Assembly (NCBI GenBank): GCA_003245525.1
Contig: QKCY01000303.1
Location: 1 to 36,077, forward strand
DNA length: 36,077 nucleotides
Source: Victivallales bacterium
GTDB lineage: Bacteria; Verrucomicrobiota; Lentisphaeria; Oligosphaerales; Lenti-02
Direction of reading: 5' to 3'
In this document: positions 1-26,046 of the stretch, piece after piece
How the letters are laid out: every line of letters starts with the position of its first letter
Position numbering within the stretch: position 1 is the first letter of the stretch
Program-made: the position numbers and the translations under genes
The notes under the pieces: generated by a model
The model's database searches: none
Seen by the model: the letters and a program-made list of their open reading frames with translations, nothing else
Told to the model about the DNA's origin: nothing

Positions 1-2674
1 GGAAAACCGAGACGGCCCCGCGGTCGCGGTATTTCAGAGTGTCGAGAAGCACCTCGCCCTGCACGGTCTGCTTCAGCTCGAACGTGGTCTCCATCCACGG
101 TCCCGGCGTCGCCGAACGGAGGAGCACAATCCCGAGGCTGGCCAAAGGCCGCACTACCTCCGTTTCGCTCCCTTTCCAGGTGGCGTCGAGAGCGGGGAAG
201 GACAGCCAACCCGGCAGGGCACCACCGGTTTGACCATACACCACACTCCCCAGCCTCTCCTGCCAGCGGCCACCACGGGGTTCCCAGAGGGTATCCACCG
301 TCATGTTCGCGCTGTCCTGGCGGAAGTCGAGTTCGTCCACAATCAGGGCGTATTGGCCGACTTGCTGGAGCAGATGCCGTCGCCATGCGCAGAACGCCGC
401 GCGCGGCACGGTGCCCAACGCATACACGCTATTCCCCACCACATCGCGGGCTAGCAGGCCCGCATCCATGGCCACGCTGGATTCCACCATGCCATCGGCT
501 TTGGTCAAGACCTGGTTGAGATAGCCACGCAGCAGGGGTTTCCCTGCGATCCGCAGATCCAGAATCGCAAACGTGTGGTAGGGATTCCGGGACGCCCCGT
601 TGAATCCGTCCAACAAGACGAAGTCGCCGCCGCTATCCACCTGGTCCCGGAAGCTGCCGAAGGCAAAGGACTGGTCCAGGGGAATGCCACTGCCCCGGGT
701 CTGCCAAAGGGGTTCGGGCAAGGCCTGGATCGACCATTTCCCCGTGAGACCAGTGGGTTCAACCGCAGTCAGTTCCGGCCCCGGCCAGAAGGACTGCCCC
801 ACCCGGAAGATGCCGGTGTCCTGGTGGGTGCGGTGCTGACGGTAGTAGAGCCAGCGGCCATCGCCGGTCAGATGGGCCGCCTTGTGGAGGAAACCGAGGG
901 ATGCGTACCGGATTTGCCGGTCGTCGCTCTCGCCGTTGAGCAGGGCTTCCTGCCCGCGCAGGAGCTTGGCCACCACGCCATTCTCCAGCGGCACCCGGTC
1001 GCCGCTCAGACAGAGGTAGGTGAAGACTGGGGCGATGCCGGTGCTGTACCAGAACAGGTTGTCGTTCTCCCCCGCCACCCAATCGTGGCGGTGCAGGGAA
1101 GCGAAGGCGTAGTTGGCAGCGGCGAAGGTGTGTTCCCAGACCGGATCGGGATAGTCGCGCTGGAAATAGCGGCCCAGGCAGTACAAGCCAATGGCCGCCC
1201 ATTGACCGTGCCGCGAACTCACCGAGCCGGCGGGACCGCGCAGGCCGTAGATGCCTTTGCGGGCATAGTCGTCGTGGTCCAACTGGCGGGCCAGGGCGTT
1301 GGTCACCCGCAACCGTTCGGCGTCGGAGAAGACCGGGCTCTCCTCGATGAGGTCCCAGAAAAGGGTCATCATGTGCTGGTTGTAGTGATAGGCTCCGGCC
1401 AGGGGATCGTCCTTGTTCTCGATCCGTTCGCCATCGATGCGGGCAATCTCCGCCTTGGCTTGGGCATCGGGGAAGGCCAGGCGGATAACCTCGCGCGCCT
1501 GCCGGGGATCACCGGTCAGGTAGTAGAGGGCCATGCGCTTGCTGATGGAGTTCCAGCCGAAGTAGCCCACCGAGCCGTAGCCATCCGACGCCTCCCACGT
1601 CTGAACCTGCTCGATATCGTCGGGCACGGTCAGCCTTGTCCCCAGCCGCACATCGAGCAGATAGCCCAATCGGAGGTCGCCAGGCTTGCCTACCTGCTGA
1701 ATCCGTTCGGCCAGCCGGTCGGCAGCCAGAACCACCCCCGCCTCGTCGCTACCGCCCACCAGAATCGCGTTCCGGCCATTGCCGAAGGGGTTGTGCAGCG
1801 AATGCAGGGCGTAGCCACCGACACCGGGGTACTTCCCGTCGAGCAAGGTGTAGTAGAGATCGTAGAGCCGCCCCAACACGGGATTGGTGGAGCGGTTGCC
1901 CAGAATCACCGCGTGCTGGGCCAAGGGCAGCGGCACCTCCGCCACCACCGGCAGTTCGACGCCAGTCGCCGTCCGAATCGCCTCCTGCAACCGTCGGGCC
2001 GCCTCCGCATGGCAGGCCGGTGCCACGATCGCCGCCTGAGCCTTGCCGTCCGTCACCAGAGGCGTCGCGATATGCAAATCCTTGAGGGCCGTGTACTGCG
2101 GAGCCTTCATCTCGGGCACGCCAGCGGGAGCCTTCGGCAGTTCGACGCCTGCCCGGACCCGCACATCGGCCAAGAGGATCGTGGTCCCCTCCCCCTTGTG
2201 GGTATAGAGGTAGATACGGGCACTCTTCGTGCCGACCGGGCTCTTACCGTAGACCGCCAACTCCTCGAACTTGTCTGTCGCCGTGGTACGCAGGTCGATC
2301 TGAGAGAGCTGGTTGGAGGGCAGGAACCGAAGCTGGAGATAGACGTTGCCGGGTGCTGGGCGGTCGGGCAACGCCGCCACCCGCACCTTCACCTCGTAGG
2401 TCTCCTCCGGTTCGGCGGGGAAATCCTGGGACAGGCCGATCTCGCGACCCGGATCGGCATCCTGCAACCGCAAGGCGGGCCCGTCGGCAAAGGCGGGACG
2501 GGCCGGAGTCAGCGACTGTTCCGCGCCCCCTCCCCCGTAGAACTGCCACCCGGCGGGAACCTTGGCTCCGGCTGGCCAGTCCGCGAAGGAGCCATTCACC
2601 AAATCGACCGCCCGTGGTGCGGCCATGGCCATCGCTCCCGAGAGACAGAGCGCGAGAAGACACCCGGTTCGCAT
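1..2674 (-). CDS. Secreted carbohydrate-active protein, heparinase/alginate-lyase-like (3' end beyond window)
   Basis: The frame is open from ATG at 2674 to the left edge, about 891 codons, so the C-terminus is missing and the gene is absent from the ORF track. The start follows GGAGG by 7 nt. Residues 1-19 form a signal peptide. Residues about 22-175 look like a jelly-roll carbohydrate-binding module, with alternating beta strands and a VNGSFADWPAG opening. Residues about 190-330 resemble the alpha/beta N-domain found before many glycoside hydrolases (EAARRLQEAI, then HAVILGNRSTNP). From about 360 an alpha-rich region (AYHYNQHMMTLFWDL) suggests the (alpha/alpha) toroid of polysaccharide lyases, followed by a beta-sandwich (FVLLDGFNG near 686) as in heparinase II/III proteins. 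It probably acts on an acidic polysaccharide outside the cytoplasm. It lies 48 nt after the upstream hydrolase gene, so it is likely the distal gene of that operon. Substrate and catalytic residues cannot be assigned. Confidence 0.8.
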   Translation of the reverse strand, partial: MRTGCLLALCLSGAMAMAAPRAVDLVNGSFADWPAGAKVPAGWQFYGGGGAEQSLTPARPAFADGPALRLQDADPGREIGLSQDFPAEPEETYEVKVRVAALPDRPAPGNVYLQLRFLPSNQLSQIDLRTTATDKFEELAVYGKSPVGTKSARIYLYTHKGEGTTILLADVRVRAGVELPKAPAGVPEMKAPQYTALKDLHIATPLVTDGKAQAAIVAPACHAEAARRLQEAIRTATGVELPVVAEVPLPLAQHAVILGNRSTNPVLGRLYDLYYTLLDGKYPGVGGYALHSLHNPFGNGRNAILVGGSDEAGVVLAADRLAERIQQVGKPGDLRLGYLLDVRLGTRLTVPDDIEQVQTWEASDGYGSVGYFGWNSISKRMALYYLTGDPRQAREVIRLAFPDAQAKAEIARIDGERIENKDDPLAGAYHYNQHMMTLFWDLIEESPVFSDAERLRVTNALARQLDHDDYARKGIYGLRGPAGSVSSRHGQWAAIGLYCLGRYFQRDYPDPVWEHTFAAANYAFASLHRHDWVAGENDNLFWYSTGIAPVFTYLCLSGDRVPLENGVVAKLLRGQEALLNGESDDRQIRYASLGFLHKAAHLTGDGRWLYYRQHRTHQDTGIFRVGQSFWPGPELTAVEPTGLTGKWSIQALPEPLWQTRGSGIPLDQSFAFGSFRDQVDSGGDFVLLDGFNGASRNPYHTFAILDLRIAGKPLLRGYLNQVLTKADGMVESSVAMDAGLLARDVVGNSVYALGTVPRAAFCAWRRHLLQQVGQYALIVDELDFRQDSANMTVDTLWEPRGGRWQERLGSVVYGQTGGALPGWLSFPALDATWKGSETEVVRPLASLGIVLLRSATPGPWMETTFELKQTVQGEVLLDTLKYRDRGAVSVF

Positions 2675-2722
2675 CGTCGGTCCTCCACGTCGGCAGGGCG
2701 GCGGACGGAGGGAGACAGGAAA

Positions 2723-3691
2723 CTAGTCCAGCCGCTGCAGGAAGGCTGTCGCCCGGTCGACCACCTCTTGGGTCCAGGCGGCAGACGAAAAATTATGGTT
2801 CGCCCCGGCGATTTCCACCAGTTCCACCGGAAGCGCGTGCTCGCGCACGTAGTCGCCGAAATAGGTCTGCGCCGCCGGGGCATCGGGATCGCCCGTGCCG
2901 TAGATCATCAGGGCCGGCAGATCGGGACGGAGTTTGGCCAGATGCTTCTTCGGGGCCTCGCCGCCCTGGGTTCGGCTCTCGACGGCGGCGGACTTCGCAG
3001 TCTTGCCGAGGGCGCGTTTGGGCGACGCCGTTTCCTCCGGCTTCGCCTCGCCCTCCTCCTTGCGCCGGTTGCGGCCCCGGTTCAGGAAGTGGCCGAAAAG
3101 GACGTTGAAGACCCCCTTGACGCTCACATCGCCCCGGAACAGCCGCTTCCAGGTGCTGCCCTGGGTAGCCTTGCGCCAGTACACGCGCAGGTAGTGGAAG
3201 GTGCGATGCACATCCCGCCCGAAGGCGTCGCCGTCGGAGAAGGGATAGACCGAGAGCAGGATCAGCCCCTTGGCGGGCAGCTTCGGCAGCGTGCCGATGG
3301 TCACATTGCCCCCGGAGCAGAGACCAAAGTAGACGATGTGGTCCAACCCGGTCGCCGCCCGGAAGGCCGCCGTGGCCCCGACCAGATCGTCGGCCATGGT
3401 GGGCAGACTGGCAGTCAGGCCATCGCCCTCGCTTTCGCCGCGTCCCCGGAAGTCGAAACGCAACGACGGATACCCCGCCGCCGCGAACTGGCGGGCCAGA
3501 TGAGTCAGCAGGCCCTGCGGACCCGACCGATTGCCGCTCCAACCGTGGACAAAGATGATCCCCAGCTTCTTGCCCGCTCCCTCCGGCGTGGCCAAGACCC
3601 CGCGCAGGCTGGCTCCCTCGACCGCGAAGGAGAATGCCGCCTCGCGACCGGTTCCAGCGAGAGAAGTCTCGGGCTTCAGTCCGACACTCAT
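2723..3691 (-). CDS. Alpha/beta hydrolase, exosortase-associated hydrolase 1-like, Cys nucleophile
   Basis: This is a 322-residue cytoplasmic alpha/beta hydrolase without a signal peptide. The oxyanion region reads FVHGWSGNR, followed by LRFDFRGRGESEG. The nucleophile elbow is GLCSGG, with Cys125 where most family members have Ser. The acid lies near DPDAP (about 266-270) and the base is His299 in GANHNF. A Cys in a GLC elbow, the FRG downstream motif and the WRK-LFRG stretch recall exosortase A system-associated hydrolase 1 (TIGR03100). This is from memory and not searched. An insert rich in Lys/Arg/Glu (about 205-245) sits in the cap region. The start lies 7 nt after the upstream stop, and the AGGAG ribosome site overlaps that stop, so translation is probably coupled. 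Function may be an acyl or thioester transfer linked to the cell envelope, but this is inference. Confidence 0.85.
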   Translation of the reverse strand: MSVGLKPETSLAGTGREAAFSFAVEGASLRGVLATPEGAGKKLGIIFVHGWSGNRSGPQGLLTHLARQFAAAGYPSLRFDFRGRGESEGDGLTASLPTMADDLVGATAAFRAATGLDHIVYFGLCSGGNVTIGTLPKLPAKGLILLSVYPFSDGDAFGRDVHRTFHYLRVYWRKATQGSTWKRLFRGDVSVKGVFNVLFGHFLNRGRNRRKEEGEAKPEETASPKRALGKTAKSAAVESRTQGGEAPKKHLAKLRPDLPALMIYGTGDPDAPAAQTYFGDYVREHALPVELVEIAGANHNFSSAAWTQEVVDRATAFLQRLD

Positions 3692-3698
3692 CGGGCAA

Positions 3699-4961
3699 TC
3701 ACTCCTGGGGCGGGGCCGGGGGCGGCGGAACTGGCATGGCGGGGGCGGCCGGTTTGCCTGCGGGCTTGACGGGGGGCAGGTACTTCTTCAGGAACTCCAT
3801 ATGCTTCGCATAGGCGTACTGGGCGGGCTTCTCGTCGTAGTACAACACGAAGTTGTGCCCGCCACCCGGCACCACGTCGTAGGTGTAGGTCTTGTCGTAC
3901 TTCTTCAGTTGGGCGATCAAGTCCTCGTGGCTCTGGTGGAACACGCTGCCTTCGTAGGCCCCGCCGATGAAGAGCAGAAGCGGGCAGTGGATCGTGTCCG
4001 CATGATGCACGATGCTGCGCTGCATCAGTCCGGCCAACTGTTGGTCCACGGGCTGGTTGCAGAAATCGGCCCAGCTTAGCCAGTTGTTCGCCCCGCGGCG
4101 CATCCGGTCCCAGTAGTAGCGGAAGGGATTCACCAGCCAGGCGTCGTAGCTGACCATACAGCAGGCATCGGGATGGCGCGCGGCGGCCAGGAGACCGATG
4201 CCAGCCCCGAAACTGTGGCCGATGACCCCGAACTTGCCGCCCTGCACATAGGGCAGCTTGCGGGCAGCCGACACCGCTGACAGGGCATCGTCCACCTCGC
4301 CGTCCAGATTCTCGATCTCGCCTTCGCACTTGAAGGCCAGGCTCTTTGGCACGTACTGGCTGGCAAAGAGATCCTCGCCGCGGAAAGCAGGCCCGACGAT
4401 CACATAGCCCTCCGCCGCCATGCCAGCCAACCATGGCAGAGCATAGACCGGCACCCCATAGGCGGCACCGTGGGTATAGAGCAGCAGGGGGAACTTCTGG
4501 TCCGGCTGCCGGTTGGCGGGCACCACCAGCACGCCGTATTGCTTGAGGTCGTCCACCAACCAGCGCACAATCCAGATCTCGGCCGCCTCCGCGTCGGGCA
4601 CCCGAATCCGACCGAGCATCTCGAAGGTACCATCCGGCACCGGCGCCCACTTCTCCTCGGGCAGGGGTTTCAGTTCCTTCACCAAGGCCACCCCCTCCTG
4701 CCAATCCTTGGCGGCCGTCGCCATGTCGTCCTTGCTCGCGGCCAAGCGGCCGTCGAACCACTTCTGCAAGGCGGCCGCGCAGTCCTTGCCCTCGATCAAC
4801 GGATCACCGAGCGCCTTGACCAAGGCCGCCTCCTCGGGCGTGAGGCTGTCGGGCCCTGCCCAGTCCAGCCCCTCCAGACCGGGACGGACCGAGTCCCCGG
4901 CCATCAGCCCCGCCGCAACGAACAGGCCCAGGAGAAGAAACAGACGATATGGACGAAACAT
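3699..4961 (-). CDS. Secreted alpha/beta serine hydrolase, S9/dienelactone-hydrolase-like
   Basis: The ORF track extends this frame to 5183, but ATG at 4961 gives an ideal signal peptide (MFRPYRLFLLLGLFVAAGLMAG) and lies 2 nt after the upstream stop (TGAGTATG), so I take it as the start: 420 residues. A helical N-terminal part (about 35-120) precedes the hydrolase domain. The nucleophile is Ser250 in GHSFGAG and the catalytic His is 369 in GGGHNF. An oxyanion-hole segment is visible around YTHGAAYG. This is the architecture of acylaminoacyl-peptidase-like and acetyl-xylan-esterase-like secreted hydrolases. The C-terminus is Pro/Ala-rich (PPVKPAGKPAAPAMPVPPPP), perhaps wall- or membrane-spanning. 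Sandwiched between two exosortase-hydrolase-like genes, it is the only member of the trio with a classical Ser. Esterase versus peptidase cannot be decided. Confidence 0.87.
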   Translation of the reverse strand: MFRPYRLFLLLGLFVAAGLMAGDSVRPGLEGLDWAGPDSLTPEEAALVKALGDPLIEGKDCAAALQKWFDGRLAASKDDMATAAKDWQEGVALVKELKPLPEEKWAPVPDGTFEMLGRIRVPDAEAAEIWIVRWLVDDLKQYGVLVVPANRQPDQKFPLLLYTHGAAYGVPVYALPWLAGMAAEGYVIVGPAFRGEDLFASQYVPKSLAFKCEGEIENLDGEVDDALSAVSAARKLPYVQGGKFGVIGHSFGAGIGLLAAARHPDACCMVSYDAWLVNPFRYYWDRMRRGANNWLSWADFCNQPVDQQLAGLMQRSIVHHADTIHCPLLLFIGGAYEGSVFHQSHEDLIAQLKKYDKTYTYDVVPGGGHNFVLYYDEKPAQYAYAKHMEFLKKYLPPVKPAGKPAAPAMPVPPPPAPPQE

Positions 4962-4963
4962 AC

Positions 4964-5812
4964 TCAAGAGACCTTCTCTTCGGTCTTGGGAACCGCGACC
5001 TGCAAGATATCCCCCAGGAAGGGCAGGACCGCATCGATCACGGCATCCGATTCGTAGTATTCCAGCTGACCCCAGAACGGTTTGTCCGCCACCACGGTGG
5101 TCTGCTTGGCGGCATCCACCAGCGGTTGCCAGGCAGGCGGCAGCTTCGCGGAGCCCGACACCCGGATCACCTGCAAGGCGCAAGCGGGAGCCAACTTGCC
5201 CACCAGACTACCGGCTTCCACCTCGGACAACTGCCCGGCCATCTGGGACGACACCGCCACCCCGCCGAAATCGACGGTTTCCCCCGCCCGCCAGCGGCTG
5301 GCGGCATCGGCACCGGTATCGTCGCGTTGGCCTGACATCATGTCCTTGATCTTCTGACGACGTTCGAGATCGCGCAGGAATTCATTCCCGCTCAGCACGG
5401 GTTCGAGCAGCACCATGGCCCGCGGCGGCAACTCGACAGCCGCCTGTAGCGCTGGCAACGCGCCAAACCGGACGCCGATTGGGCACCAGGCCGAAATCCC
5501 CGCCTGCTGCCGCACGAAATCCGCCGCCGCACACACGTCGGCGCACCAGCCCGCGAAATCCGCCTGGGCATGTTCGCCCGGACTGTCGCCGGTCCCAGCC
5601 AGATCGAAACGCAGAACCGGAATGCCGCAGGCGGCAATGGCCCGCGCCAGTCGGACCAACAGGCGGTAGGCGCACTTCTTCTCCTCGCCGAAGGGTTCCA
5701 CCAGAACCACGGCCGTATCCGTCGCCACCCGTTCCGGCAGATGAAGCGTCCCGTAGAGGTCGCCGCCGGGGCCGGGCAGATAGCCGCTGGTTTCGTTGCA
5801 GGAGAGACCCAT
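4964..5812 (-). CDS. Alpha/beta hydrolase-fold protein, exosortase-associated hydrolase 2-like, nucleophile replaced
   Basis: This 282-residue protein has no signal peptide and shows the alpha/beta hydrolase layout: VVLVEPFGEEKK, then VLRFDLAGTGDSPG, then an elbow region GVRFGALPAL. The elbow carries Arg115 where Ser, Cys or Asp would be the nucleophile. The PFGEEKK segment and GVRFGAL elbow resemble exosortase A system-associated hydrolase 2 (TIGR03101), recalled as having PPFAEE and GLRLGALLA. No clear catalytic His is visible near the C-terminus, so it may be a non-catalytic or atypical family member. It starts the tight three-hydrolase block, with GAGGT about 5 nt before the ATG. The upstream sialidase-fold gene ends 83 nt away on the same strand. 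That it works in the same process as the 2723-3691 protein is inferred from gene order. Confidence 0.82.
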   Translation of the reverse strand: MGLSCNETSGYLPGPGGDLYGTLHLPERVATDTAVVLVEPFGEEKKCAYRLLVRLARAIAACGIPVLRFDLAGTGDSPGEHAQADFAGWCADVCAAADFVRQQAGISAWCPIGVRFGALPALQAAVELPPRAMVLLEPVLSGNEFLRDLERRQKIKDMMSGQRDDTGADAASRWRAGETVDFGGVAVSSQMAGQLSEVEAGSLVGKLAPACALQVIRVSGSAKLPPAWQPLVDAAKQTTVVADKPFWGQLEYYESDAVIDAVLPFLGDILQVAVPKTEEKVS

Positions 5813-5895: not shown

Positions 5896-7083
5896 CTAGT
5901 CGCCCAAGGAGAGAGGCAGGCGGCAGAAGAAGACGCTGTAGGCGTCCTCCCACACGAAGACCAGCTCCTGTGCCCCCTCGTCGATGTAGCCATCGGGATA
6001 GTTCAGGGGCTGCCGGGGATTGGGGTCGGTCACCAAATCCACCTTTACGGGCCAAGTCTTCATCCCGTCGTGGCTCACCCAGAGGGAGAGCGGGTTGCGG
6101 CCCCGCATGATGTCGGCGGAGCTGTCCACCGGATTGTGGATCAGGAAAACCCGTCCGTCCGCCGCCTTCAGGAGCAGCACCTTGGCGGCAGGATTGGGGA
6201 TGTCGCTGCGTTCCGGCTGACTCCAGGAATCCCCGCCGTCCCACGACTCGGCCCACCAGAGCCGTCCGTCCCGCTGGGACCGGATCAACATCACCACATG
6301 GCCAGGCTCCAGTTCGACCACGCGCGGCTCGATCAGCCAGCCATGCAGTCCGCCCCGCAGGTAGCCCGAGCGGCGGAAGCTCGCGCCCCCGTCGTCGGAC
6401 AGCAGCGTGCCCACACAGTAGCGGTGGTTGCGGTCGGCCCAGGCGTTGCCAGCATTTTGCTGGAGCATGCCTTCCGCCATGTAGGGAATCTCCTGCACGG
6501 CCAGCGGCTTGCCGCCAACCATCGGTTCCAGCGGCGGGCGGCCATGGGTGGGTTCGCACCACTCGCTACCGATCAACTCGGGCCAACTGACCGGGATGAC
6601 CCAGCGCCCCGAGACGAGCCGGATGCCCTTGTTCACCCAGACGTTGTCGACTCCACCGGGCACGGAATGCGGCCCCTCCCAAGTGATCCCCCCATCCCGG
6701 CTGATCGCCCGGTAGGAGTTGATGTGGGTCATCCACGAGCCCATCCCATAGGTCTGGAGGAAAGCGTGGACCTCGCCCTCCCCGGCCAGGAACAGCTCGG
6801 TGGTGAACAGCCCCAAGGAGGTGTGCCGGAAGAGCACGCCAGGCTCCGTCCACGTGGCCCCATCATCCATGGAGCGGGCATACATGGTGAAGTTGCCCGG
6901 CGTCGGTTCGCAGAAGGCGCCCGTCGTCCAGGTCGCCAGCAGGTGGCCAGGAGAGGTACGGCAGAGCAGCCCCTCGCGAGTGAACAGCCGTTGGCCGGAG
7001 TCCTTCCACGGGTACCCTTCGGGTCCAGGCCAAATCCGCTGCATCGACAGGGCGGGATGGATAACGGCATCGCTGGCAAGCAT
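5896..7083 (-). CDS. Sialidase-fold (BNR/Asp-box) protein, no signal peptide
   Basis: The 395-residue protein carries five Asp-box-like motifs spaced through the chain (SMDDGATW, SRDGGITW, SDDGGASF, SWDGGDSW, SHDGMKTW), as in six-bladed sialidase propellers. In GH33 sialidases these boxes are structural, not catalytic. A classical N-terminal FRIP arginine motif is not obvious, so true sialidase activity is uncertain; related folds include other exo-glycosidases and lyases. No signal peptide is visible, so it probably acts in the cytoplasm on imported oligosaccharides, unlike the two secreted paralogue-like proteins in this window. AGGAG lies 8 nt before the ATG. It is probably the first gene of the minus-strand operon and is divergent from the hybrid kinase gene. 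Confidence 0.85.
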   Translation of the reverse strand: MLASDAVIHPALSMQRIWPGPEGYPWKDSGQRLFTREGLLCRTSPGHLLATWTTGAFCEPTPGNFTMYARSMDDGATWTEPGVLFRHTSLGLFTTELFLAGEGEVHAFLQTYGMGSWMTHINSYRAISRDGGITWEGPHSVPGGVDNVWVNKGIRLVSGRWVIPVSWPELIGSEWCEPTHGRPPLEPMVGGKPLAVQEIPYMAEGMLQQNAGNAWADRNHRYCVGTLLSDDGGASFRRSGYLRGGLHGWLIEPRVVELEPGHVVMLIRSQRDGRLWWAESWDGGDSWSQPERSDIPNPAAKVLLLKAADGRVFLIHNPVDSSADIMRGRNPLSLWVSHDGMKTWPVKVDLVTDPNPRQPLNYPDGYIDEGAQELVFVWEDAYSVFFCRLPLSLGD

Positions 7084-7242
7084 GGCGGAACTCCTAAGCT
7101 GTCCTTGGTCTCACGGCCCATAAGGTAGCCGGGATGGATTCGCCGCCAACCTGGAAGGCGATGGGCAAAGCGCACATGCCGTACTACAGTGGTAATCCCT
7201 CGCTCCGGAACGAAGTCCCCTCTGCACAATCGACGGAATCCC
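7084..7242. promoter_or_regulatory. Divergent intergenic region (sialidase-fold gene / hybrid kinase)
   Basis: This gap must hold promoters for both directions. I see only weak candidates. On the minus strand TTGGCG and TACCTT are 16 nt apart upstream of the 7083 start. No good -35/-10 pair is visible for the kinase. No clear palindrome was seen. Confidence 0.3.
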
Positions 7243-10200
7243 GTGAACCGCAGGATAAGTCTGTTCCTCGGCACTATTATCCTTCTCACCGCCCTGGGCG
7301 TGGCCTTGGTCTGCTGGCTATGGGGCCGGTCCTTGCTCCATCGCTGGCTGGAGGAGGAAACCCACCGGGTCCAGGGGTACATCCAGCAGTCCGTGGCGAA
7401 CCGCGACCGGCTGCTGGAACTGGTCGACAACGACCTTGCCCGGGAGATGCGGGAGAAGCTGCCCCTAGCCGCCGCCGCGTTGGGCTCCGACCCTCTCCGC
7501 ACCACCACCGCCGAGAACCTCCGGCAGGTGGCCGACCGCTACGGTCTCGACGATCTCTACCTGATCGACGCATCGGGAACGGTCGTGGCCTCCACTTTGC
7601 CCGAGGATGCCGGCCTCGATCTGGCCGACCGTAACCCGGCTTTGGGCACCTACCTGGGCACCCTTCAGGGAACCGGGACCCTCAGCACCCACACCATCTC
7701 CGTCAGCATGCTCAGGGGGGTCTTCCGCAAGTACGGGTATTTCAGCCCAGTGGGCACCGACTATGTGGTGGAGGCATCCTACGATGTCGAGAACTACCTG
7801 GCAACCCATTTCTCGCCCGCCACCCGCGACCTGCTCCTGTTCCGGGACTTCTCCTTGTTTCCCGAAGACTGCCACTTCGTCGCCGATGTGGAACTCTACG
7901 AGCTGGTCCAGGGAGTAAACTGGTCCCTCACCCGCCGTGGCGGGCACCTGCTTCTCACCGGCGACCAGAGGAGCCAGTTGGAGCACGATGGCATACTGGA
8001 CCTGAAGGAAGGAGACGGGACACGCTACATCCTGCTCGGGGGGCACAGTCCGGTCGATCCGGGCAGCGGGCAATTCCGGGAACGCCGGGTGGCCCGCATC
8101 CAGTTCGACCGCTCGCGCCTGCGCCAGGAACTCCATACGTTGCTGGTCGGAGTGGTGCTCTCCGCGCTCCTGGTGGGCATGGTTGCCCTCCTGGTCGTCA
8201 CCGAGTATGTGGACCGTCGCTACCTCAGCCAACTGGCCATGCTGAATGACGCCATCGTCCACATCGCCGAAGGCGACTACAGCCTGTCCACCCCGCCGGT
8301 CGGCCACGACGAGCTGGCTACGACCGCCAGCCACGTACGCCTCGCCGCCGAGCGGATCAGCCAGCGGGAACGCGCCTTCCAACGGCTCACCAACAATCTC
8401 AACATCACTTTAGAGAGCATGGGCGAAACCGTGATCGCCACCGATGCCGAGGGGCGGATATCCCGCCTGAATCCGGCCGCCGAGACCCTCACGGGGTGGA
8501 CCGCCCTCGCTGCCAGCGGGCGGGAGATCGGCGATGTCTTCCGCCTGGCCGGTGCCGACTCCCAGTTGTTCCCGCGCCTCTTGGACCGCAGCCGCCAGGA
8601 AGCCGCTCCCGTCCCGCTCCCCGCCTGCGCGACGGTAGTCTCCCAGGACGGCACGCGGCGCGAAGTGACGGGGAGCGTCGCCGTGATCCGCGCAACCGAG
8701 GACGAAGCCCTGGGCTATGTCCTGGTCTGTAGCGACACCACCGAGCAGACCCGTCAGGCCAACCGGCTCCACGAGTTTGAGAGCCGTCTCCGGGCGATCA
8801 TGAACCATGCCCCCATCGCCATCGCCCTCGTGACGGACGAAGGCAAACCAGCGTTCGTCAACCTGTATCTCTGCAAGCTGCTCGGCAGCAGCATGGAGGA
8901 TGTCCACCGGCGGGGCATCGAAGCATTCACCCATCCCGACGACCTGGCGCGGGTCCGCCACGAGACCAGGCGGCTCCTGGCTGGCGAGGCCGAGACCTGC
9001 TGGTTCCGGGCCCGCTACCTGCACCCCGACGGCCAATCGGCTTGCGCCGACATCACCATGGTCGCCATCCGGGAGCAGACCGAATCCCCCTGCCTCCTCT
9101 TTCTCGGACGCGATGTCACCGACGAGGAGCGCATCACCCGCGAACTGCGCTGGGAACGGGAGCAGCGCCGCCTGATCCTGGACCACACGCGCGAGTACCT
9201 GCTCCATCTGAAACCGGACCTCCACGTGGAATGGGCCAACCGGGCCGCCGATCCGGAGGGACACAGCATCAGCCGCAGGCTCCGCTGCCACCAACTGATC
9301 TTCGGCAACGAGGAGCCCTGCCAGGGATGCCCGATCCAAACCGCCATACGGACGGGGGAACCGAGCGAAAGCACGGTCGATGCCGGCGGCAAGCGCCTGA
9401 TGGTGACCGCCAGCCCGCTCTACGACGGGGACCACCGGCTCGAAGGCATTGTCGTCTCGGCCCGGGACATGACGCGGCTTCGGGAAATCGAACGGCAGCT
9501 TTTCCAGGCCCAGAAACTGGACGCCCTGGGACGCCTGGCCGGCGGCATCGCCCATGATTTCAACAACATGCTCAATGTCGTCATCGGCTACGGAGAACTG
9601 ATCGGGCTCGAGGAGGACGAGGCCTGCCGGGGCGAATACCTCGCGGGCATCATCCAGGCGGCCCGTTCCGCCGAGGGGCTGGTGCGCCAGTTGCTCGCCT
9701 TCTCGCGGACGACGGGAGACAGTCAGCGCGAGGAGCTGGACCTCAATCCTCTCGTCCAGGCGTTCGCCAAGATGCTGGGGGGGGTTCTGCCCGCCAATGT
9801 CGAGTTGGAACTGCACCTCCATCCCGTCGCCCTGCCCACCCAGGTGGACCGGGGGCAGTTCGAGCAGGCCCTGATGAATCTCTGCATCAACGCCCGCGAT
9901 GCGATGGCCGACGGCGGCAAGCTGACGATCCGCACTTATCCGGTCTACCGGGACGGGGCATCCAGCCAGGCCTACGGCAATTCCCGTGGAGGACACTTCG
10001 CCGGTTGCGAGGTCAGCGACACCGGCACGGGCATTCCCGAACGCCTGCTAACCCGCATCTTCGATCCCTTCTTCACCACCAAGCCGCCCGGCCAGGGCAC
10101 CGGTCTGGGGCTCTCCACCACCTACGCGATCATCACCGACCACGACGGCATGATCGAGGTGGAGAGCACGCCGGGCAAGGGGACCACCTTCCGGATTCTC

Positions 10201-10647
10201 TTCCCCCTTTTGGGGCGAGTGGAAGCCCCCCTGGCCCCCCACTCCGTCCTGGAGCCGGAGTTCGCCGCCCAGGGCAAGGAGACCATTCTCGTAGTGGAGG
10301 ACGACGAGCCGCTGCGGCACCTCGTACACGGCTTTCTGGAGCGGGCAGGCTACCAGACCATTCTGGCCAGCACGGGTCCCGAGGCCATCTCCCTGTTCAA
10401 CCGGCACCACGCGGCCATCTCCCTGGCGCTGATCGACGCCATCCTGCCGGGGTGTCCCGGAATCCAGGTGGCCCGCCACATTGGCTCCCGCCACGCCGCT
10501 CTGCCCATCCTCTTCTGTAGCGGCTATGCGGGCGACAGTCCCGACTTCCCCGACATTGAGGACCGGCTGATCACCAAACCGTTCCGCCGTCTGGAATTGC
10601 TGCGCCGCATCCGGGCCGCCCTCGACAACCGGCCCGATTCCGTCTAG
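7243..10647 (+). CDS. Membrane-bound hybrid histidine kinase with three PAS domains and receiver
   Basis: The ORF opens at a GTG at 7189, but GTG at 7243 places a short basic tail directly before the first membrane helix (about residues 5-27), so I prefer it: 1134 residues. An extracytoplasmic sensor of about 270 residues follows, then a second helix (about 300-320) and a HAMP-like segment. Three PAS domains cover about 385-750. The third holds an RCHQLIFGNEEPCQGCP stretch with three Cys, seen in some redox- or metal-linked PAS domains. The kinase core has the phospho-accepting His771 (GGIAHDFNN), N box (NLCINARDAM), G1 (DTGTGI) and G2 (GTGLGL). A C-terminal receiver has the acidic pair in VVEDDEP and phospho-acceptor Asp1065. 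No separate output regulator is adjacent. It probably senses an extracellular or redox cue; the signal is unknown. Confidence 0.93.
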   Translation: MNRRISLFLGTIILLTALGVALVCWLWGRSLLHRWLEEETHRVQGYIQQSVANRDRLLELVDNDLAREMREKLPLAAAALGSDPLRTTTAENLRQVADRYGLDDLYLIDASGTVVASTLPEDAGLDLADRNPALGTYLGTLQGTGTLSTHTISVSMLRGVFRKYGYFSPVGTDYVVEASYDVENYLATHFSPATRDLLLFRDFSLFPEDCHFVADVELYELVQGVNWSLTRRGGHLLLTGDQRSQLEHDGILDLKEGDGTRYILLGGHSPVDPGSGQFRERRVARIQFDRSRLRQELHTLLVGVVLSALLVGMVALLVVTEYVDRRYLSQLAMLNDAIVHIAEGDYSLSTPPVGHDELATTASHVRLAAERISQRERAFQRLTNNLNITLESMGETVIATDAEGRISRLNPAAETLTGWTALAASGREIGDVFRLAGADSQLFPRLLDRSRQEAAPVPLPACATVVSQDGTRREVTGSVAVIRATEDEALGYVLVCSDTTEQTRQANRLHEFESRLRAIMNHAPIAIALVTDEGKPAFVNLYLCKLLGSSMEDVHRRGIEAFTHPDDLARVRHETRRLLAGEAETCWFRARYLHPDGQSACADITMVAIREQTESPCLLFLGRDVTDEERITRELRWEREQRRLILDHTREYLLHLKPDLHVEWANRAADPEGHSISRRLRCHQLIFGNEEPCQGCPIQTAIRTGEPSESTVDAGGKRLMVTASPLYDGDHRLEGIVVSARDMTRLREIERQLFQAQKLDALGRLAGGIAHDFNNMLNVVIGYGELIGLEEDEACRGEYLAGIIQAARSAEGLVRQLLAFSRTTGDSQREELDLNPLVQAFAKMLGGVLPANVELELHLHPVALPTQVDRGQFEQALMNLCINARDAMADGGKLTIRTYPVYRDGASSQAYGNSRGGHFAGCEVSDTGTGIPERLLTRIFDPFFTTKPPGQGTGLGLSTTYAIITDHDGMIEVESTPGKGTTFRILFPLLGRVEAPLAPHSVLEPEFAAQGKETILVVEDDEPLRHLVHGFLERAGYQTILASTGPEAISLFNRHHAAISLALIDAILPGCPGIQVARHIGSRHAALPILFCSGYAGDSPDFPDIEDRLITKPFRRLELLRRIRAALDNRPDSV

Positions 10648-13111: not shown

Positions 13112-15208
13112 TCACCGAACGGGCTGAGGATCGCCCGCCTTCCTGGCGTCGAAGAACTCGGCGAGGGGGTAGGCTTGCTGGTTGACCGCCCGGGCGGCGT
13201 TGAGGAGCGTTTCGTGGGGCTTAAGCTCCTGGGTGAACATCCCCTTGTTGACGCCGCCAGCGGAATCGAGATGGGTGGATTCGGCGGGGTCGTCGTGGTA
13301 CTTGAACCAGTGCCAGCCGACGCAGGTGCCGGATTCGAGGAGGCCGAGGGTGAAGTGCTGGTAGAAATCAGCGCGGTCCTGCTGGGTGTGGACCAACCAG
13401 CCGGCACCCTTCGCGTTGGCCAGGCCGGTATCCTCGGCCTTGGCGTACCATTCGCTGATGATGACGGGCTTGCCGCTGGTCGCATACCAGCGGGCCATCT
13501 GGTCGAGATCGGGGCCCCAGACGCCGTAGTAGTTCACCGAGATCACGTCCACGTACTTCGCGACCATCTGCATGAAGAGGGGGTTGTCGAACTGGGAACT
13601 GAGGTTGATGCGGCTGCCGATGTAGAGGTGATTCGGGTCGTGCCGCCGGATCGCCTGGCTCACCACTTGGTAGTAGCGCTCGAAAACGTAGGCGATGAAG
13701 GCCAAACGATCACGCCGACCGACGCCAGCCAGATCGGCGTTGCCCCGGCGCGCCGTGAGCCAAGCCACGGCAGCATCATGGCCGGGCTTGAGGTCGGGAT
13801 TGGTCACATCGAGGGCGAGGTGGCGGTCCAACAAATCGACGGGACACTGCAATTCGTTGTCCGAGAAGATGCCGAGGAGGCGGGGATCGTCCTTGGTAGC
13901 TTCCAGCCGCTTCGCGTACTCCTCGCAGAAGGCCTCGAACTCGGGATGGAAGACCGGGATACAGTCGTTGGCGAATCCGGTGTGTCCGGCGGTGGCGTAG
14001 GTCATCTTCTTGCTTCGGGCAAAGGAGGAGACGAACCCAGTCCCCAAGGTATAGCTGAAGGGACGGGAGACCCTACGGAGGGCGGAGTTGCCCGAACTGG
14101 TGCCGTTGAAGCCGTTCTCGACGAAGATCCGGGAGGTCTCCTCCGCCCACTGCTCGGTCGTGCCGTACTGGGCCTTCAGGGCATCCCAGGCCACCTTGTA
14201 CTCCGGCATGACGTGGTTCATAGCCACATGGATGAAGCGGTAACCGTCGGGATCGATGAGCCACCAGCGGCCCTCGATCTGCTTGGCATAGAAAAAGCCG
14301 GTGGCAGTCTCCTGCGGTCGGTCCATCCAGCCGCCGTAGGGGTCGAGATGGACGGGATCGGCGGGTGGCAGGTAGCCGGCCAGCTTGGCCAGGACGCGGG
14401 TGGGACGGACCTGCCAGTCGCTGCCAGCAGCCACGTCCACCGTGCCGTCGCGTTGGGGACGGACCGGGGGGACCTGACGGTCGTAGCGGTCCTCGGTAGC
14501 GGCGAAGAAAGCTTGGACCTGCGCGGGCGAGAGAGCACGTTTCCAGAGGCGGAGTTCGCCGATCCGCCCCTCGAACGGCAGGGCGTTCCGACCGGGCGCG
14601 TCCCCCAGGAAGAGCGGTCGTTCATTCCCCTTGATGACGCCAGAGTGAGGCTGCGTCCCGGTCTGGTTGCCGTCGACAAAGGCAGTCAGATTCTGCCCGT
14701 CGTAGGTCACGGCCAGGTGGATCCAGACATCGAGCGGCAGCCCATCGGACAAGGCGATGAAGGTCTTCTTGCCGGTGGTGTTCCGGGTACCAAAGGAGAC
14801 GCTGCGCCCCGGCTGCGCGACCATCCCGAACAGGGGCGTGGTCCAGCTCAGATTGGCGTCGGGACGCCCAAAGAGCAGCGTATAGCGGTTGAGTACGGCC
14901 GGGCGGACCCAGACGGCCGCCGTGAATTGGTCGGTGAAGCCAAACGGCGTGCGTTCGGGGATGGTCACCATGGTATCCATGCCATCGAACGCCAGCGAGT
15001 TGCCGTTCCGTTCGGGCACGATCCTCCCGGCCGTGATCTCCCCATCGTTGCCGACCGGCGATAGATCCCGCACGGTCTTGCCGTCGCTGCTGCCGAAATC
15101 CCAATGGCCAACCAGTCCTTCGGCGACAGGCACGGTTTCGTCACCCGCCTGCGCGAGACCCAGGCTAATGACGAGCAGGACAATAAGATGCGGGATGCCA
15201 AGTCTCAT
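13112..15208 (-). CDS. Secreted LamG-domain glycoside hydrolase, agarase/GH-A clan-like
   Basis: The track extends the frame to 15325. I choose ATG at 15208 because it gives a clean signal peptide (MRLGIPHLIVLLVISLGLAQA); ATG at 15229 is an alternative. The product has 698 residues. Residues about 30-230 are a concanavalin/LamG domain (GLVGHWDFG, then FDGMDTMVTIP, LFLGDAPG, FEGRIGELRLWKRAL), the kind that binds polysaccharide. From about 290 a WWLIDPDGYRF segment, typical of agarase-like enzymes, opens a (beta/alpha)8 barrel. Candidate acid/base is Glu452 in FSDNEL and candidate nucleophile Glu586 in VIISEWYAK, a spacing normal for clan GH-A. It is expected to hydrolyse a galactan or similar polysaccharide outside the cytoplasm. 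The next gene upstream on this strand ends 124 nt away. GH50/GH86-like assignment is tentative. Confidence 0.83.
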   Translation of the reverse strand: MRLGIPHLIVLLVISLGLAQAGDETVPVAEGLVGHWDFGSSDGKTVRDLSPVGNDGEITAGRIVPERNGNSLAFDGMDTMVTIPERTPFGFTDQFTAAVWVRPAVLNRYTLLFGRPDANLSWTTPLFGMVAQPGRSVSFGTRNTTGKKTFIALSDGLPLDVWIHLAVTYDGQNLTAFVDGNQTGTQPHSGVIKGNERPLFLGDAPGRNALPFEGRIGELRLWKRALSPAQVQAFFAATEDRYDRQVPPVRPQRDGTVDVAAGSDWQVRPTRVLAKLAGYLPPADPVHLDPYGGWMDRPQETATGFFYAKQIEGRWWLIDPDGYRFIHVAMNHVMPEYKVAWDALKAQYGTTEQWAEETSRIFVENGFNGTSSGNSALRRVSRPFSYTLGTGFVSSFARSKKMTYATAGHTGFANDCIPVFHPEFEAFCEEYAKRLEATKDDPRLLGIFSDNELQCPVDLLDRHLALDVTNPDLKPGHDAAVAWLTARRGNADLAGVGRRDRLAFIAYVFERYYQVVSQAIRRHDPNHLYIGSRINLSSQFDNPLFMQMVAKYVDVISVNYYGVWGPDLDQMARWYATSGKPVIISEWYAKAEDTGLANAKGAGWLVHTQQDRADFYQHFTLGLLESGTCVGWHWFKYHDDPAESTHLDSAGGVNKGMFTQELKPHETLLNAARAVNQQAYPLAEFFDARKAGDPQPVR

Positions 15209-15293
15209 TCGGAGGCTTCTTTCTGCCATGGGTGAAGGTGCCCGGGGAATGGAGAGCAGCAAGCATGCCCTCGGGTGAGTGGTTCTGCCAAGG

Positions 15294-15306
15294 CCCGTCG
15301 GACGGG
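15294..15306 (-). terminator. Short hairpin downstream of the sialidase-fold gene
   Basis: CCCGT-CGG-ACGGG forms a 5-bp stem inside a 13-base inverted repeat, 27 nt past the stop at 15333 on the minus strand. The stem is short and no U-run follows, so it is only a possible terminator or pause site. Confidence 0.3.
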
Positions 15307-15332
15307 TACGATGGCCTTCGGTCACAGGAAGG

Positions 15333-16952
15333 CTAGTGCCCTACGAAATCCGTTTCCTTCAGCTTGATGAAGGAGAGGCCCTGCCAGGTGGTGACCCAGA
15401 GTTCGCCGGGGCGGCGTTCGAAGATCTCGGGGTAGCTCTGGCGTTGGTTGCGGAGACGGAGAAGGATGACGGGGTCGGTCCAAGTCCTGCCGTCGTCTCC
15501 GCTGAAGGCCATGGAGAGCTCCTCGCGGCGGCCGACGTTGCGGGGACGGTTGTCGGCGAAGCGGTTCCAGAGGAGGACGAGGCGGCCGCTGGCGAGGCGG
15601 CGCAGAATGCCGGGGGAGCCGCTGGCCTTGATGGCGCTCGGGACGGGCTTGGTCCAGGTCAACCCCTGGTCGGCGGAGAAACACTCGTAGAAGAAACCGT
15701 CGTAGCTGCGCAGGAGAATCCAGAGCCGCCCGTCGCGCAGTTCCTCGACGGTGCCTTCGATACTGCCGGCATGGTCGCCGCGTCCGCCGATGTCCATGAC
15801 GTTGCTGCGCTGCCAGGTCTTGCCATCGTCAAAGGAGGTGTAGGTGAAGGAGAGGTTGCGGCCGGGATTGTGGACCATGTCCTGGCCGACCAGGACGATC
15901 TCCCCGGTGCTGAGCTGGAGCATATCGCGGAGGGCGCCGCAGAACCCCTCCTGGACGAGGCTGACTTCGGGCCACGTCTTGCCGTCGTCGAAGCTGCGGG
16001 CGAGCCAGGTCCAGCGCTTCATGTCGTCGTTGGGCTCTTCCTTCTCCTTGTTCCAGGAAAGCTTCTCGTCGGCAATGTTCAGGAAGGGGCAGAGGGTCAC
16101 GCCCGACTTGGTCCGCAGCAGGAGGATATCGCCGTTGCCGTCCCGGATGCGGAAGGGAACCCCCACCTTGGCGATGCGGCCCTGCGGCTGCCAGGTCTGG
16201 CCATCGTCGGCGCTGGCGAAGGCCTGGACGCCGCCGTCCACGTTGACGACGGTGAGCAATCCCCCGTCCGGCAGGTTCATGAACGGACCGTGCCATTTCG
16301 TGTCCTGTAGCTCGGCCTTGGGGTGGCACCACAGCTTGAGCGTATCCGGATCATAGGGGGCGGGGGAGAAGACGCCCTCGGCGGCGAAGTCGGTCAGTTC
16401 GACCGTGGCCCGGCGGGGGTCGAACCCAAAGCAGTCGAAGGTATAGGTGGGCACATCGTGGGCGTAGACCTCGCGACCGTTCACGGCGAAGGCGACGCGG
16501 TTGCCGGCGCGAGTCACGACGAAGTCGAAGGGCTTGCCGTCCTCGATCCCCGCTTCGGCGGGAGCGATGAAGGGAATGCCGCCGTGGCCCTGCGGCGTGA
16601 GCAGCCCGGTCAGGTAGATCTTGCCGTGGTTGCCCTCGAAGCCGAAGGCATGGAGCCGGTCGAAGGAGAAGCGGGCGGCGCTATGGTGCAACCCCCGGAT
16701 GGTCAGCCGGGCGGTGATCCGGAAATCCCCTTCGATCAGGCCATGGGAGGCGAGCAGCCAACGGTCCGCGCCAGTGCCCCGGAGCGCGCCGTCCGCCGCC
16801 TCCCACGGATCCCCGTCGTAGACCACGGCCACCGGCTTTCCGCCCGCCACGAACACCCGTTTCTCGGTGGTTCGCTCGGCGGGGGCGGCTCCCAGGGAGA
16901 CCGCCAGAAGAAGGAACGCCACGGCCAGGCCACGACGGGGAGGTTGGGTCAT
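15333..16952 (-). CDS. Secreted two-domain sialidase-fold protein
   Basis: The true start is ATG at 16952, which shares one base with the stop of the upstream Fe-S gene (TGATG). The track start at 17423 would run through that gene. The 539-residue product has a signal peptide (MTQPPRRGLAVAFLLLAVSLGAAPA). Residues about 25-195 form a concanavalin-like beta-sandwich (FGFEGNHGKIYLTG, GKPFDFVVTRAGNRV). The rest is a BNR propeller with Asp boxes SADDGQTW, SFDDGKTW twice, SADQGLTW and SGDDGRTW. The same two-domain layout with similar motifs occurs in the protein at 31283-32938, so the two are paralogues. It is likely an exo-acting glycosidase on sialylated or similar glycans at the cell surface. 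A classical FRIP motif ahead of the first box is not visible, so sialidase activity is not proved. Confidence 0.87.
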   Translation of the reverse strand: MTQPPRRGLAVAFLLLAVSLGAAPAERTTEKRVFVAGGKPVAVVYDGDPWEAADGALRGTGADRWLLASHGLIEGDFRITARLTIRGLHHSAARFSFDRLHAFGFEGNHGKIYLTGLLTPQGHGGIPFIAPAEAGIEDGKPFDFVVTRAGNRVAFAVNGREVYAHDVPTYTFDCFGFDPRRATVELTDFAAEGVFSPAPYDPDTLKLWCHPKAELQDTKWHGPFMNLPDGGLLTVVNVDGGVQAFASADDGQTWQPQGRIAKVGVPFRIRDGNGDILLLRTKSGVTLCPFLNIADEKLSWNKEKEEPNDDMKRWTWLARSFDDGKTWPEVSLVQEGFCGALRDMLQLSTGEIVLVGQDMVHNPGRNLSFTYTSFDDGKTWQRSNVMDIGGRGDHAGSIEGTVEELRDGRLWILLRSYDGFFYECFSADQGLTWTKPVPSAIKASGSPGILRRLASGRLVLLWNRFADNRPRNVGRREELSMAFSGDDGRTWTDPVILLRLRNQRQSYPEIFERRPGELWVTTWQGLSFIKLKETDFVGH

Positions 16953-18007
16953 CAATCTGCGTCCTTGATACGCCCCAGATTGTCCAGCTTGGTCCGTTCG
17001 TCGTTGTAGACCGCGCCGGGCGGGTCCATCGGGGGCTGTTCCCAGTCCACGGTCCAGACCGGACGGCGCCGGAACTTCTCGTGGAACTTGTTGGTGAGCA
17101 CGCCACGATTCTCCATGGAGACCATGCAGGCGCGGGTGCAACCGCGCGCGCCGCACACGGCCTGCCCGGTATTGTACACGTTGCTGGGCTTTTTGCTGAA
17201 GGGCGACCAGGAGGACTGGGTCACATTCTTGCCGTACATCGGCGGGGTGTACTGCTTCGCGGGGGGCAGCTCGTCCTTGGTGGCGAGACCGCCACGGAAG
17301 GCGATGTCGCAGGCCGCGCAGTCGATCTCGCCCCACTCTACGTCGTGCCCGGCCAGGTTGACCTTCACGGTCTTGGTCCGGCTGATGGCCCCCGTCGGGC
17401 AGTCGCGCACGCAGGCCATGCACTTGTTGCAGAGCTGGGGACGGCCGGAATCGGGATAGAGCGGATCGGGCTCCAACTCCAGATCGGTGATGATGACCCC
17501 GAAGCGGTTGCGGGGGCCGAACTCGGGGGTCAGCAGCATCTTGCTGTAGCCGATCTCGCCCAGACCGCAGAGGAAACCCGCGATACGCAGGTGGATCATC
17601 ACGTCCGGCGCGGCCTGGCCCTCGCGGACCGGGCGGCTGTAGCCCCGGCGCAGGTAGCCGTCGCCGTCGATGGCGCGCCAGTCGCTCTGGTGGCCCATGG
17701 GGACCGCCTCGTAGCCCTCGTCCTCGATGGCCTTCGAGAGGTTGATCACGGTCATGGGCATGTAGAGATAGGTGATGCCGCCGTAGCCCATGGCCGAGTA
17801 GTTGCTGAAGTAGGTGCCTTCCTCGATGCCGCGCATGCTGCCGCGCATCACGCGGAAGGCCATGCCGATCACGCTCTTCGCCTCGGGCATGATCTGCCGG
17901 GGGTCCATTTGGATGGGAGCGCCGTTCCAGCGCTCGATGTTGCCGATGCCCACGGCATCCGCACCCATGCTCCGTGCCAGTTTCTTCACCGCTTCGGCTG
18001 TCAGCAT
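16952..18007 (-). CDS. [4Fe-4S] reductive-dehalogenase/QueG-like oxidoreductase
   Basis: ATG at 18007 follows a near-perfect AGGAGG with 6 nt spacing, so I use it rather than the upstream start at 18031: 351 residues, no TAT or Sec signal. The N-terminal half (LARSMGADAVGIGNIERW, EAKSVIGMAFRV) resembles the corrinoid/nitroreductase-like part of epoxyqueuosine reductase and reductive dehalogenase relatives. Around residue 220 lies a complete cluster motif CNKCMACVRDCP. Further Cys in CAACDI and CGARGCTRACM could supply a second cluster. The role is probably reductive chemistry in the cytoplasm. Its stop overlaps the start of a secreted sialidase-fold gene, an unusual partner, so the two are co-translated. 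Whether it binds cobalamin cannot be told from sequence alone. It is not a standard QueG in context: no tRNA-modification genes are nearby. Confidence 0.85.
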   Translation of the reverse strand: MLTAEAVKKLARSMGADAVGIGNIERWNGAPIQMDPRQIMPEAKSVIGMAFRVMRGSMRGIEEGTYFSNYSAMGYGGITYLYMPMTVINLSKAIEDEGYEAVPMGHQSDWRAIDGDGYLRRGYSRPVREGQAAPDVMIHLRIAGFLCGLGEIGYSKMLLTPEFGPRNRFGVIITDLELEPDPLYPDSGRPQLCNKCMACVRDCPTGAISRTKTVKVNLAGHDVEWGEIDCAACDIAFRGGLATKDELPPAKQYTPPMYGKNVTQSSWSPFSKKPSNVYNTGQAVCGARGCTRACMVSMENRGVLTNKFHEKFRRRPVWTVDWEQPPMDPPGAVYNDERTKLDNLGRIKDAD

Positions 18008-19742: not shown

Positions 19743-19762
19743 CTTGCCCCCGCTTGGGCAAG
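19743..19762. promoter_or_regulatory. Inverted repeat between dtd and the giant protease gene
   Basis: CTTGCCC and GGGCAAG form a perfect 7-bp inverted repeat with a 6-nt spacer, 60 nt upstream of the preferred protease start and about 95 nt upstream of the dtd start. Position between divergent genes suggests an operator; a terminator is unlikely. A TATCTTAT stretch just after it could be part of a -10 region. Confidence 0.35.
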
Positions 19763-19821
19763 GCCCTATCTTATTGCGGGGTGCCCGGATGGGCGATGCG
19801 AATGATGGTAAAGACCATAGT

Positions 19822-25800: not shown

Positions 25801-26046
25801 GTCTACGCCGCCGAGGAGACGCCCCTTATCGTCGAGGGGACCGCGCCCGTCTCCGGCACCCGCGGGTTCCCCTTCGGCTGGAACCTCTTCGGCCCCCTCG
25901 CCGACCGGGATCTGCTCGACGACTCCATCTTCGACAGCGACACGCTGGAGTGGTCCTCCGGCGAGTACCTGAGAGCCGTACAGCTTCAGTGCGGCAAGGG
26001 CTACTGGATTCACGCAGGGACGTCGGGAGAAGCCACCGTGCGCTAG
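19822..26046 (+). CDS. Giant secreted double protease: C25 gingipain-like plus M14 carboxypeptidase
   Basis: ATG at 19822 gives a basic start and one membrane segment ([20 protein letters not shown]), so the 2074-residue product is probably exported or anchored; starts at 19744 (TTG) and 19789 are possible. Domains in order: a propeptide-like region to about 300; a C25 cysteine peptidase (about 305-700) with catalytic His518 (YLGHGSE) and Cys551 (VSGACLNG); an Ig-like segment; He_PIG putative-Ig repeats from about 770; an inserted beta domain ([12 protein letters not shown]); an EF-hand/dockerin-like loop [12 protein letters not shown] near 1319; an M14 peptidase with zinc ligands His1500, Glu1503 (GIHGDE) and His1615 (ANLHTG), plus catalytic Glu1697; a CarbopepD-like beta-sandwich (about 1727-1800); and a C-terminal domain ([11 protein letters not shown]). 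No type IX or PEP-CTERM sorting tail is visible. It should cut proteins internally and trim their C-termini. Confidence 0.9.

Follow-up and report, generated by a model that had tools for sequence, protein, structure and literature searches.

Three adjacent genes of a Victivallales bacterium encode alpha/beta hydrolases. Two of them belong to a widespread hydrolase pair that has no assigned function, and the trio is the form that this pair takes in one lineage, neither a product of degeneration nor a component of the exosortase system. The trio lies on contig QKCY01000303.1 (C208 in the draft genome of 6.7 Mb, assembly GCA_003245525.1), all 36,077 nt of which were analysed and are called the window here. 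The outer genes, hydr2 and hydr1, encode Arg and Cys, respectively, at the nucleophile elbow, and they enclose a gene for a predicted exported Ser hydrolase, the middle gene. We put at roughly 45 % the probability that the pair constitutes a Cys acyltransferase fed by acyl carrier protein (ACP), together with an Arg pseudoenzyme partner, that would serve a surface glycan or lipid, and that the exported hydrolase was recruited to it in Lentisphaeria. The facts about the family are strong, and the chemistry is what we infer.

The initial annotation, made from the sequence alone, described three packed alpha/beta hydrolases with gaps of 2 nt (hydr2/middle) and 7 nt (middle/hydr1), the outer elbows carrying Cys125 (GLCSGG) and Arg115 (GVRFGA) and the middle protein a normal GHSFG. 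These details hold (Table 1): each of the three proteins matches an alpha/beta-hydrolase entry of Pfam above its gathering threshold (PF12146, PF00326, PF12697), and the predicted fold agrees with this assignment. The arrangement is not due to chance, because gene order and elbow residues are conserved across the order. Among 60 relatives, a match to hydr2 was found in 34 and a match to hydr1 in 37, a few of them weak, and the order hydr2-middle-hydr1 is kept, mostly with small gaps or overlaps.

A widespread pair of Arg and Cys hydrolases

A scan with the hydr1 alignment over the genomes of 84,980 species yielded 80 loci, which were subjected to a six-frame hidden Markov model scan together with eight plasmid loci (L103-L190 in total, the locus of the same-genus genome G001 being L111); the proteobacterial relatives were obtained by tblastn against plasmids. 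The Cys elbow was present in 88 of 88 hydr1 proteins and the Arg elbow in 68 of 70 hydr2 proteins. This conservation was not built in by the search, because the scan patterns (HGWSGxRxGP and SVYPFSDG) do not include the elbow. Wherever both hydrolases were seen, the Arg-elbow protein precedes the Cys-elbow protein, either as two genes or as one protein of approximately 600 residues; fused hydr2-hydr1 proteins account for 36 loci, and hydr1 alone was seen in 11, some of them cut by the contig end. The hosts include Lentisphaeria, Armatimonadota, Abditibacteriota, Planctomycetota, Kiritimatiellota, Akkermansia and Sphingobacterium, as well as Alpha- and Betaproteobacteria, in which the genes are on plasmids, and the nearest proteobacterial hydr1 relatives that were read have the Cys elbow. 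The window genes fall within this tandem family by both residues and order, although throughout the trio clade the pair is split by the middle gene.

Cys and Arg elbows are, therefore, the normal state of the paired family, and the missing Ser is not a sign of decay, because these elbows are conserved across phyla. That the outer genes are decaying duplicates of one esterase that has lost its function, as altered elbow residues and a weak mutual similarity of hydr1 and hydr2 might suggest, is rejected as barely credible given the conservation of Arg and Cys over several phyla and deep divergence in full-length reading frames.

The catalytic residues of the two proteins differ. Cys125, Asp268 and His299 are kept in 30 of 30 hydr1 orthologues from the order, so the original statement that two of the three hydrolases lack the Ser nucleophile stands only in part: Ser is absent from both outer proteins, but hydr1 is not nucleophile-deficient, and it is a putative Cys acyltransferase or thioesterase. 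In hydr2, a C-terminal PFWGQ stands at the expected site of the catalytic His, and the Arg elbow is found in all assessable hydr2 proteins of the order relatives; with both positions replaced, hydr2 looks catalytically dead and is a putative pseudoenzyme partner of hydr1, which has the full Cys-His-Asp set. A hydrophobic N-terminus was seen in none of 31 hydr1 and none of 33 hydr2 orthologues.

Fused proteobacterial double hydrolases (WP_014250124 of Azospirillum and WP_013428943 of Mycetohabitans) have a hydr2-like half followed by a hydr1-like half, the same order as in the window, and the Azospirillum protein also shares the Arg and Cys elbows. Unlike the trio, they are single polypeptides in an ACP-linked operon, with no secreted partner in between. 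One fused relative, which belongs to the same family as the window, was modelled with AlphaFold2 (pLDDT 85, pTM 0.86), and the model is consistent with a fixed two-domain arrangement. None of the best 50 structural matches to the fused protein was full-length; each covers about one domain, with TMq ≤0.35.

Carrier-protein and glycan genes around the pair

Outside the trio clade, unfused hydr2-hydr1 pairs usually have an ACP gene immediately upstream, often together with glycosyltransferase genes, and in 13 non-trio loci the ACP open reading frame (ORF) directly abuts hydr2. Within the order, ACP precedes the pair in G007 and G014, with the PP-binding domain (PF00550) confirmed for G007. The same domain was confirmed in a verrucomicrobial locus, L145, where the genes encode, in this order, an SDR ketoreductase-like protein, a ketoacyl synthase and a second gene product of the same cluster, E1 alpha, E1 beta, a glycosyltransferase, ACP, hydr2, hydr1, further glycosyltransferases and a MurJ-like flippase. 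This operon (L145:896-14000) looks like an unassigned pathway for an acylated glycan or glycolipid.

The gene for the fused protein of Azospirillum and Mycetohabitans closes an operon, following those for ACP, acyl-CoA dehydrogenase, amino acid:ACP ligase, DUF1839 and a glycosidase. Its Shinella counterpart belongs to a glycan cluster that also encodes glycosyltransferases, a flippase, asparagine synthase, ACP and an adenylate-forming enzyme. In Variovorax, nonribosomal peptide synthetase genes flank the pair, and a phosphopantetheinyl transferase gene and exopolysaccharide genes accompany it. The locus L105 (NZ_CP084753.1), labelled Roseateles (Betaproteobacteria, 'UNVERIFIED_ORG'), has a cluster layout nearly identical to that of Shinella, and its label may be wrong.

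Bcam1334 of Burkholderia cenocepacia, a TIGR03100-type hydrolase, is a member of a biosynthetic exopolysaccharide cluster; the authors suggested a role in polysaccharide quality control and characterized other genes of the cluster (PMC3584217). We liken it to hydr1 by family type. Literature searches, by family accession or otherwise, returned nothing specific beyond the Bcam1334 cluster (PMC3584217).

The middle gene and the history of the trio

The middle protein was originally described as secreted, and this is supported by a hydrophobic N-terminus in 24 of 27 orthologues; it is the sole protein of the trio to have one. An NCBIfam scan of the middle protein found no close family. Ser250 and His369, the two catalytic residues that were assigned, are kept in every assessable middle protein outside family f9. 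In family f9 (G010, G016, G020 and G022; loci L059, L063, L065 and L066), Ser is replaced by Gly and no His was seen, and yet the protein and its operon position are retained. In this family, therefore, hydr1 with its Cys is the one member of the trio still able to act as a catalyst.

The middle gene was found in 28 of the 60 relatives, all 28 of which carry hydr genes. In a phylum sample of 388 genomes, it was present in 16 of 43 hydr1-bearing genomes and in 0 of 345 genomes lacking hydr1 (Fisher p=3e-17, a value that ignores shared ancestry). More telling evidence comes from genomes in which the middle gene is retained although the genes are dispersed, over three contigs in G030 and over two in G009, G026 and G043.

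A maximum-likelihood tree of 89 hydr1 sequences placed all trio loci within one clade of 30 rows, with 100/99 support. The non-trio rows of this clade are four hydr1-only loci and one fused locus of the family to which the window belongs (L121, genome G002), in which the middle gene was not found (the genome is 83 % complete). As the trio loci share one clade and the fused G002 lacks the middle gene, this gene was probably gained once and later lost in G002 with the fusion of its flanking genes.

Proposed mechanism and alternative readings

The hydr2 and hydr1 proteins would form one functional unit across many phyla, as a fused protein or as the products of adjacent genes, which would then assemble as a heteromer. 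Most likely, the unit works as a cytoplasmic acyltransferase: Cys125 would accept an acyl (or aminoacyl) group from ACP as a thioester and pass it to a cell-surface glycan or a lipid-linked precursor, and hydr2 may dock the carrier protein or the acceptor. The gene of a secreted Ser hydrolase would have been inserted between the two genes in a single clade of Lentisphaeria and have depended on the pair ever since; after export of the product, this enzyme probably trims it or removes acyl groups, either in the periplasm or outside the cell. We favour acyl transfer because many contexts of the pair have in common a thioester on a carrier protein and a glycan or peptide destined for the surface, and because a Cys-elbow hydrolase, for example polyhydroxyalkanoate (PHA) synthase, is suited to taking an acyl group from a thioester. 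PhaC, an alpha/beta-hydrolase-like enzyme with a GxCxG elbow and Cys-Asp-His residues, transfers acyl groups from a thioester; hydr1 has a Cys elbow too and may carry out a comparable reaction. The likeness is one of working principle: hydr1 matched only general abhydrolase families in Pfam, and the 50 best structural matches (Foldseek) included no PhaC, so membership in that family is not supported.

Several observations weigh against ACP-fed acyl transfer. None of the trio loci has an adjoining ACP gene, and the trio probably draws on ACP or coenzyme A (CoA) supplied from elsewhere. Trio neighbourhoods vary both between and within families, including lnt, ABC exporters, glycosidases and, in the window, a BNR protein, and name no single pathway; as only the trio itself is constant among them, we regard it as a self-contained unit. 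No acyltransferase family matches hydr1, whose nearest structures are feruloyl esterases and PETase-like and lipase-like Ser hydrolases, and a Cys triad could equally hydrolyse thioesters. Lastly, the two exceptional hydr2 proteins, in Shinella and Roseateles, have Gly instead of Arg.

Editing hydrolysis is the main rival to acyl transfer. In such a role, hydr1 would resemble a type II thioesterase and use its Cys to strip ACP of incorrect acyl groups, and its partner hydr2 would be regulatory. ACP adjacency and the intact Cys-His-Asp set fit this role equally well, and the nearest folds are those of hydrolases. The strict use of Cys over Ser (88/88), by analogy with other enzymes of this fold that have a Cys elbow, PHA synthase among them, would favour transfer, as does the position of several loci beside glycosyltransferases and flippases, and we consider editing a serious, if less than likely, explanation.

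A degradative role, in which the trio would break down polysaccharides or esters alongside the sialidase-fold proteins and other secreted enzymes of the window, is unlikely. Genes for BNR/sialidase-fold proteins and for one that is laminin-G-like are nearby, and glycosidases are frequent among Lentisphaeria neighbours, but conservation of the sialidase-like neighbour already fails inside the genus (in G001, a GH16-like gene takes its place), hydr1 and hydr2 have no signal sequences, and relatives of the pair are located in biosynthetic glycan operons.

A role in the acylation of lipoproteins or envelope lipids, directly behind the apolipoprotein N-acyltransferase gene lnt in several relatives, seems quite improbable. 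An lnt-like gene cluster lies upstream of hydr2 in nine loci, with a 4-nt overlap of lnt and hydr2 in G030; however, only some members of family f8 show this arrangement, as part of a housekeeping row, and it is absent from the window and from the f2, f9 and f10 loci.

The initial annotation likened the outer proteins to exosortase-associated hydrolases 1 and 2. In that capacity, they would act in PEP-CTERM sorting. The best NCBIfam matches are indeed TIGR03100 for hydr1 (95.5 bits against a cut-off of 168.45, or 57 %) and TIGR03101 for hydr2 (128.6 bits against 202.75, or 63 %), both far below cut-off, and the wider-family examples tested gave the same two best matches, again below cut-off. 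These families describe the same hydrolase couple, and their relatives are linked to exopolysaccharide genes in Proteobacteria; hydr1 has a TIGR03101-type partner in the trio, as it does in most of the relatives with a contig long enough to show one. The trio differs in its scores, in having a secreted hydrolase inserted and in showing no association with exosortase (PF09721). The host genome encodes one exosortase, on another contig, and 38 of the 60 relatives have one over cut-off: both genes occur in 22 relatives, hydr alone in 12, exosortase alone in 16 and neither in 10 (Fisher p=1.0). The hydr genes and exosortase are statistically independent in this sample, with 12 of 34 hydr-bearing relatives lacking an exosortase over cut-off and 16 of 26 hydr-less relatives having one, and an association was likewise absent within the order alone and among the more complete genomes. 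For this order, we reject the exosortase link as largely refuted and a PEP-CTERM role as very improbable. The original proposal had been staked on both the family scores and the conservation of the trio: the scores proved sub-threshold, and the trio proved to be conserved.

The locus and its neighbours

Table 1. Features of the hydrolase trio and its upstream neighbour (window positions)
Feature	Position	Strand	Description
hydr2	4964-5812	minus	282 aa; alpha/beta hydrolase, Arg elbow, no signal sequence
hydr2 Arg115 codon	5468..5470	minus	nucleophile position, GVRFG
Middle gene	3699-4961	minus	420 aa; ATG start, begins MFRPYRLFLLLG; predicted exported Ser hydrolase, S9/DLH-like
Predicted signal peptide of middle protein	4896..4961	minus	first ~22 residues, MFRPYRLFLLLGLFVAAGLMAG; predicted from the hydrophobic N-terminus
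Middle Ser250 codon	4212..4214	minus	GHSFG (GHSFGA); Gly in 4/4 members of family f9
Middle His369 codon	3855..3857	minus	GGHNF; lost in family f9
hydr1	2723-3691	minus	322 aa; alpha/beta hydrolase with Cys-His-Asp set, no signal sequence
hydr1 Cys125 codon	3317..3319	minus	GLCSGG; Cys in 88/88 loci
hydr1 Asp268 codon	2888..2890	minus	GDPDAP; invariant
hydr1 His299 codon	2795..2797	minus	ANHNF; invariant
BNR/sialidase-fold protein (PF13088)	5896-7083		upstream neighbour of the trio

The nearest named relative in hydr1 is 'Victivallales bacterium Lenti_02' (75-76 % identity), and the other close hydr1 loci are mostly from Lentisphaeria, with that of the cultured Oligosphaera ethanolica DSM 24202 among them. 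The trio was said to sit with sialidase-fold and lyase-like genes; the former is confirmed by the PF13088 protein upstream, but the 'lyase-like' ORF downstream (2-2674) has no above-cut-off match to Pfam or NCBIfam. This large minus-strand ORF adjoins hydr1, has an apparent signal peptide, and has a same-genus counterpart at L053:5551-7971 (76 % identity). In part of family f8 (L034-L036, L038, L068, L069 and L071), a hisD-argS-lnt housekeeping row stands directly before hydr2.

Elsewhere in the window, a large hybrid sensor histidine kinase with PAS domains (7189-10647, plus strand) is divergent from the trio side, more laminin-G-like and BNR/sialidase-fold ORFs lie at 13112-17423 (minus strand), and several long minus-strand ORFs between 20647 and 36063 have no Pfam match. 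The antisense open frames at 575-3769 (plus strand, 1064 aa) and 19744-26046 (plus strand, 2100 aa) overlap likely genes and are probably artefacts of composition.

Implications

Annotating these genes as 'exosortase A system-associated' would be misleading. Two 'hypothetical equivalog' families that owe their names solely to the company of exosortase can now be placed in a larger family, for which a mechanism open to testing can be proposed: a Cys triad with an Arg pseudo-partner, encoded beside ACP and glycan genes. The trio itself offers a clear example of how a secreted enzyme can come to depend on two cytoplasmic proteins. Tentatively, the pair might represent an undescribed class of two-subunit, ACP-dependent acyltransferases, composed of a Cys hydrolase and an Arg pseudoenzyme, that decorate surface glycans across many phyla; in Lentisphaeria, it would have been joined by an exported Ser hydrolase whose catalytic residues were later lost in one family, leaving a single catalytic subunit among three hydrolase folds.

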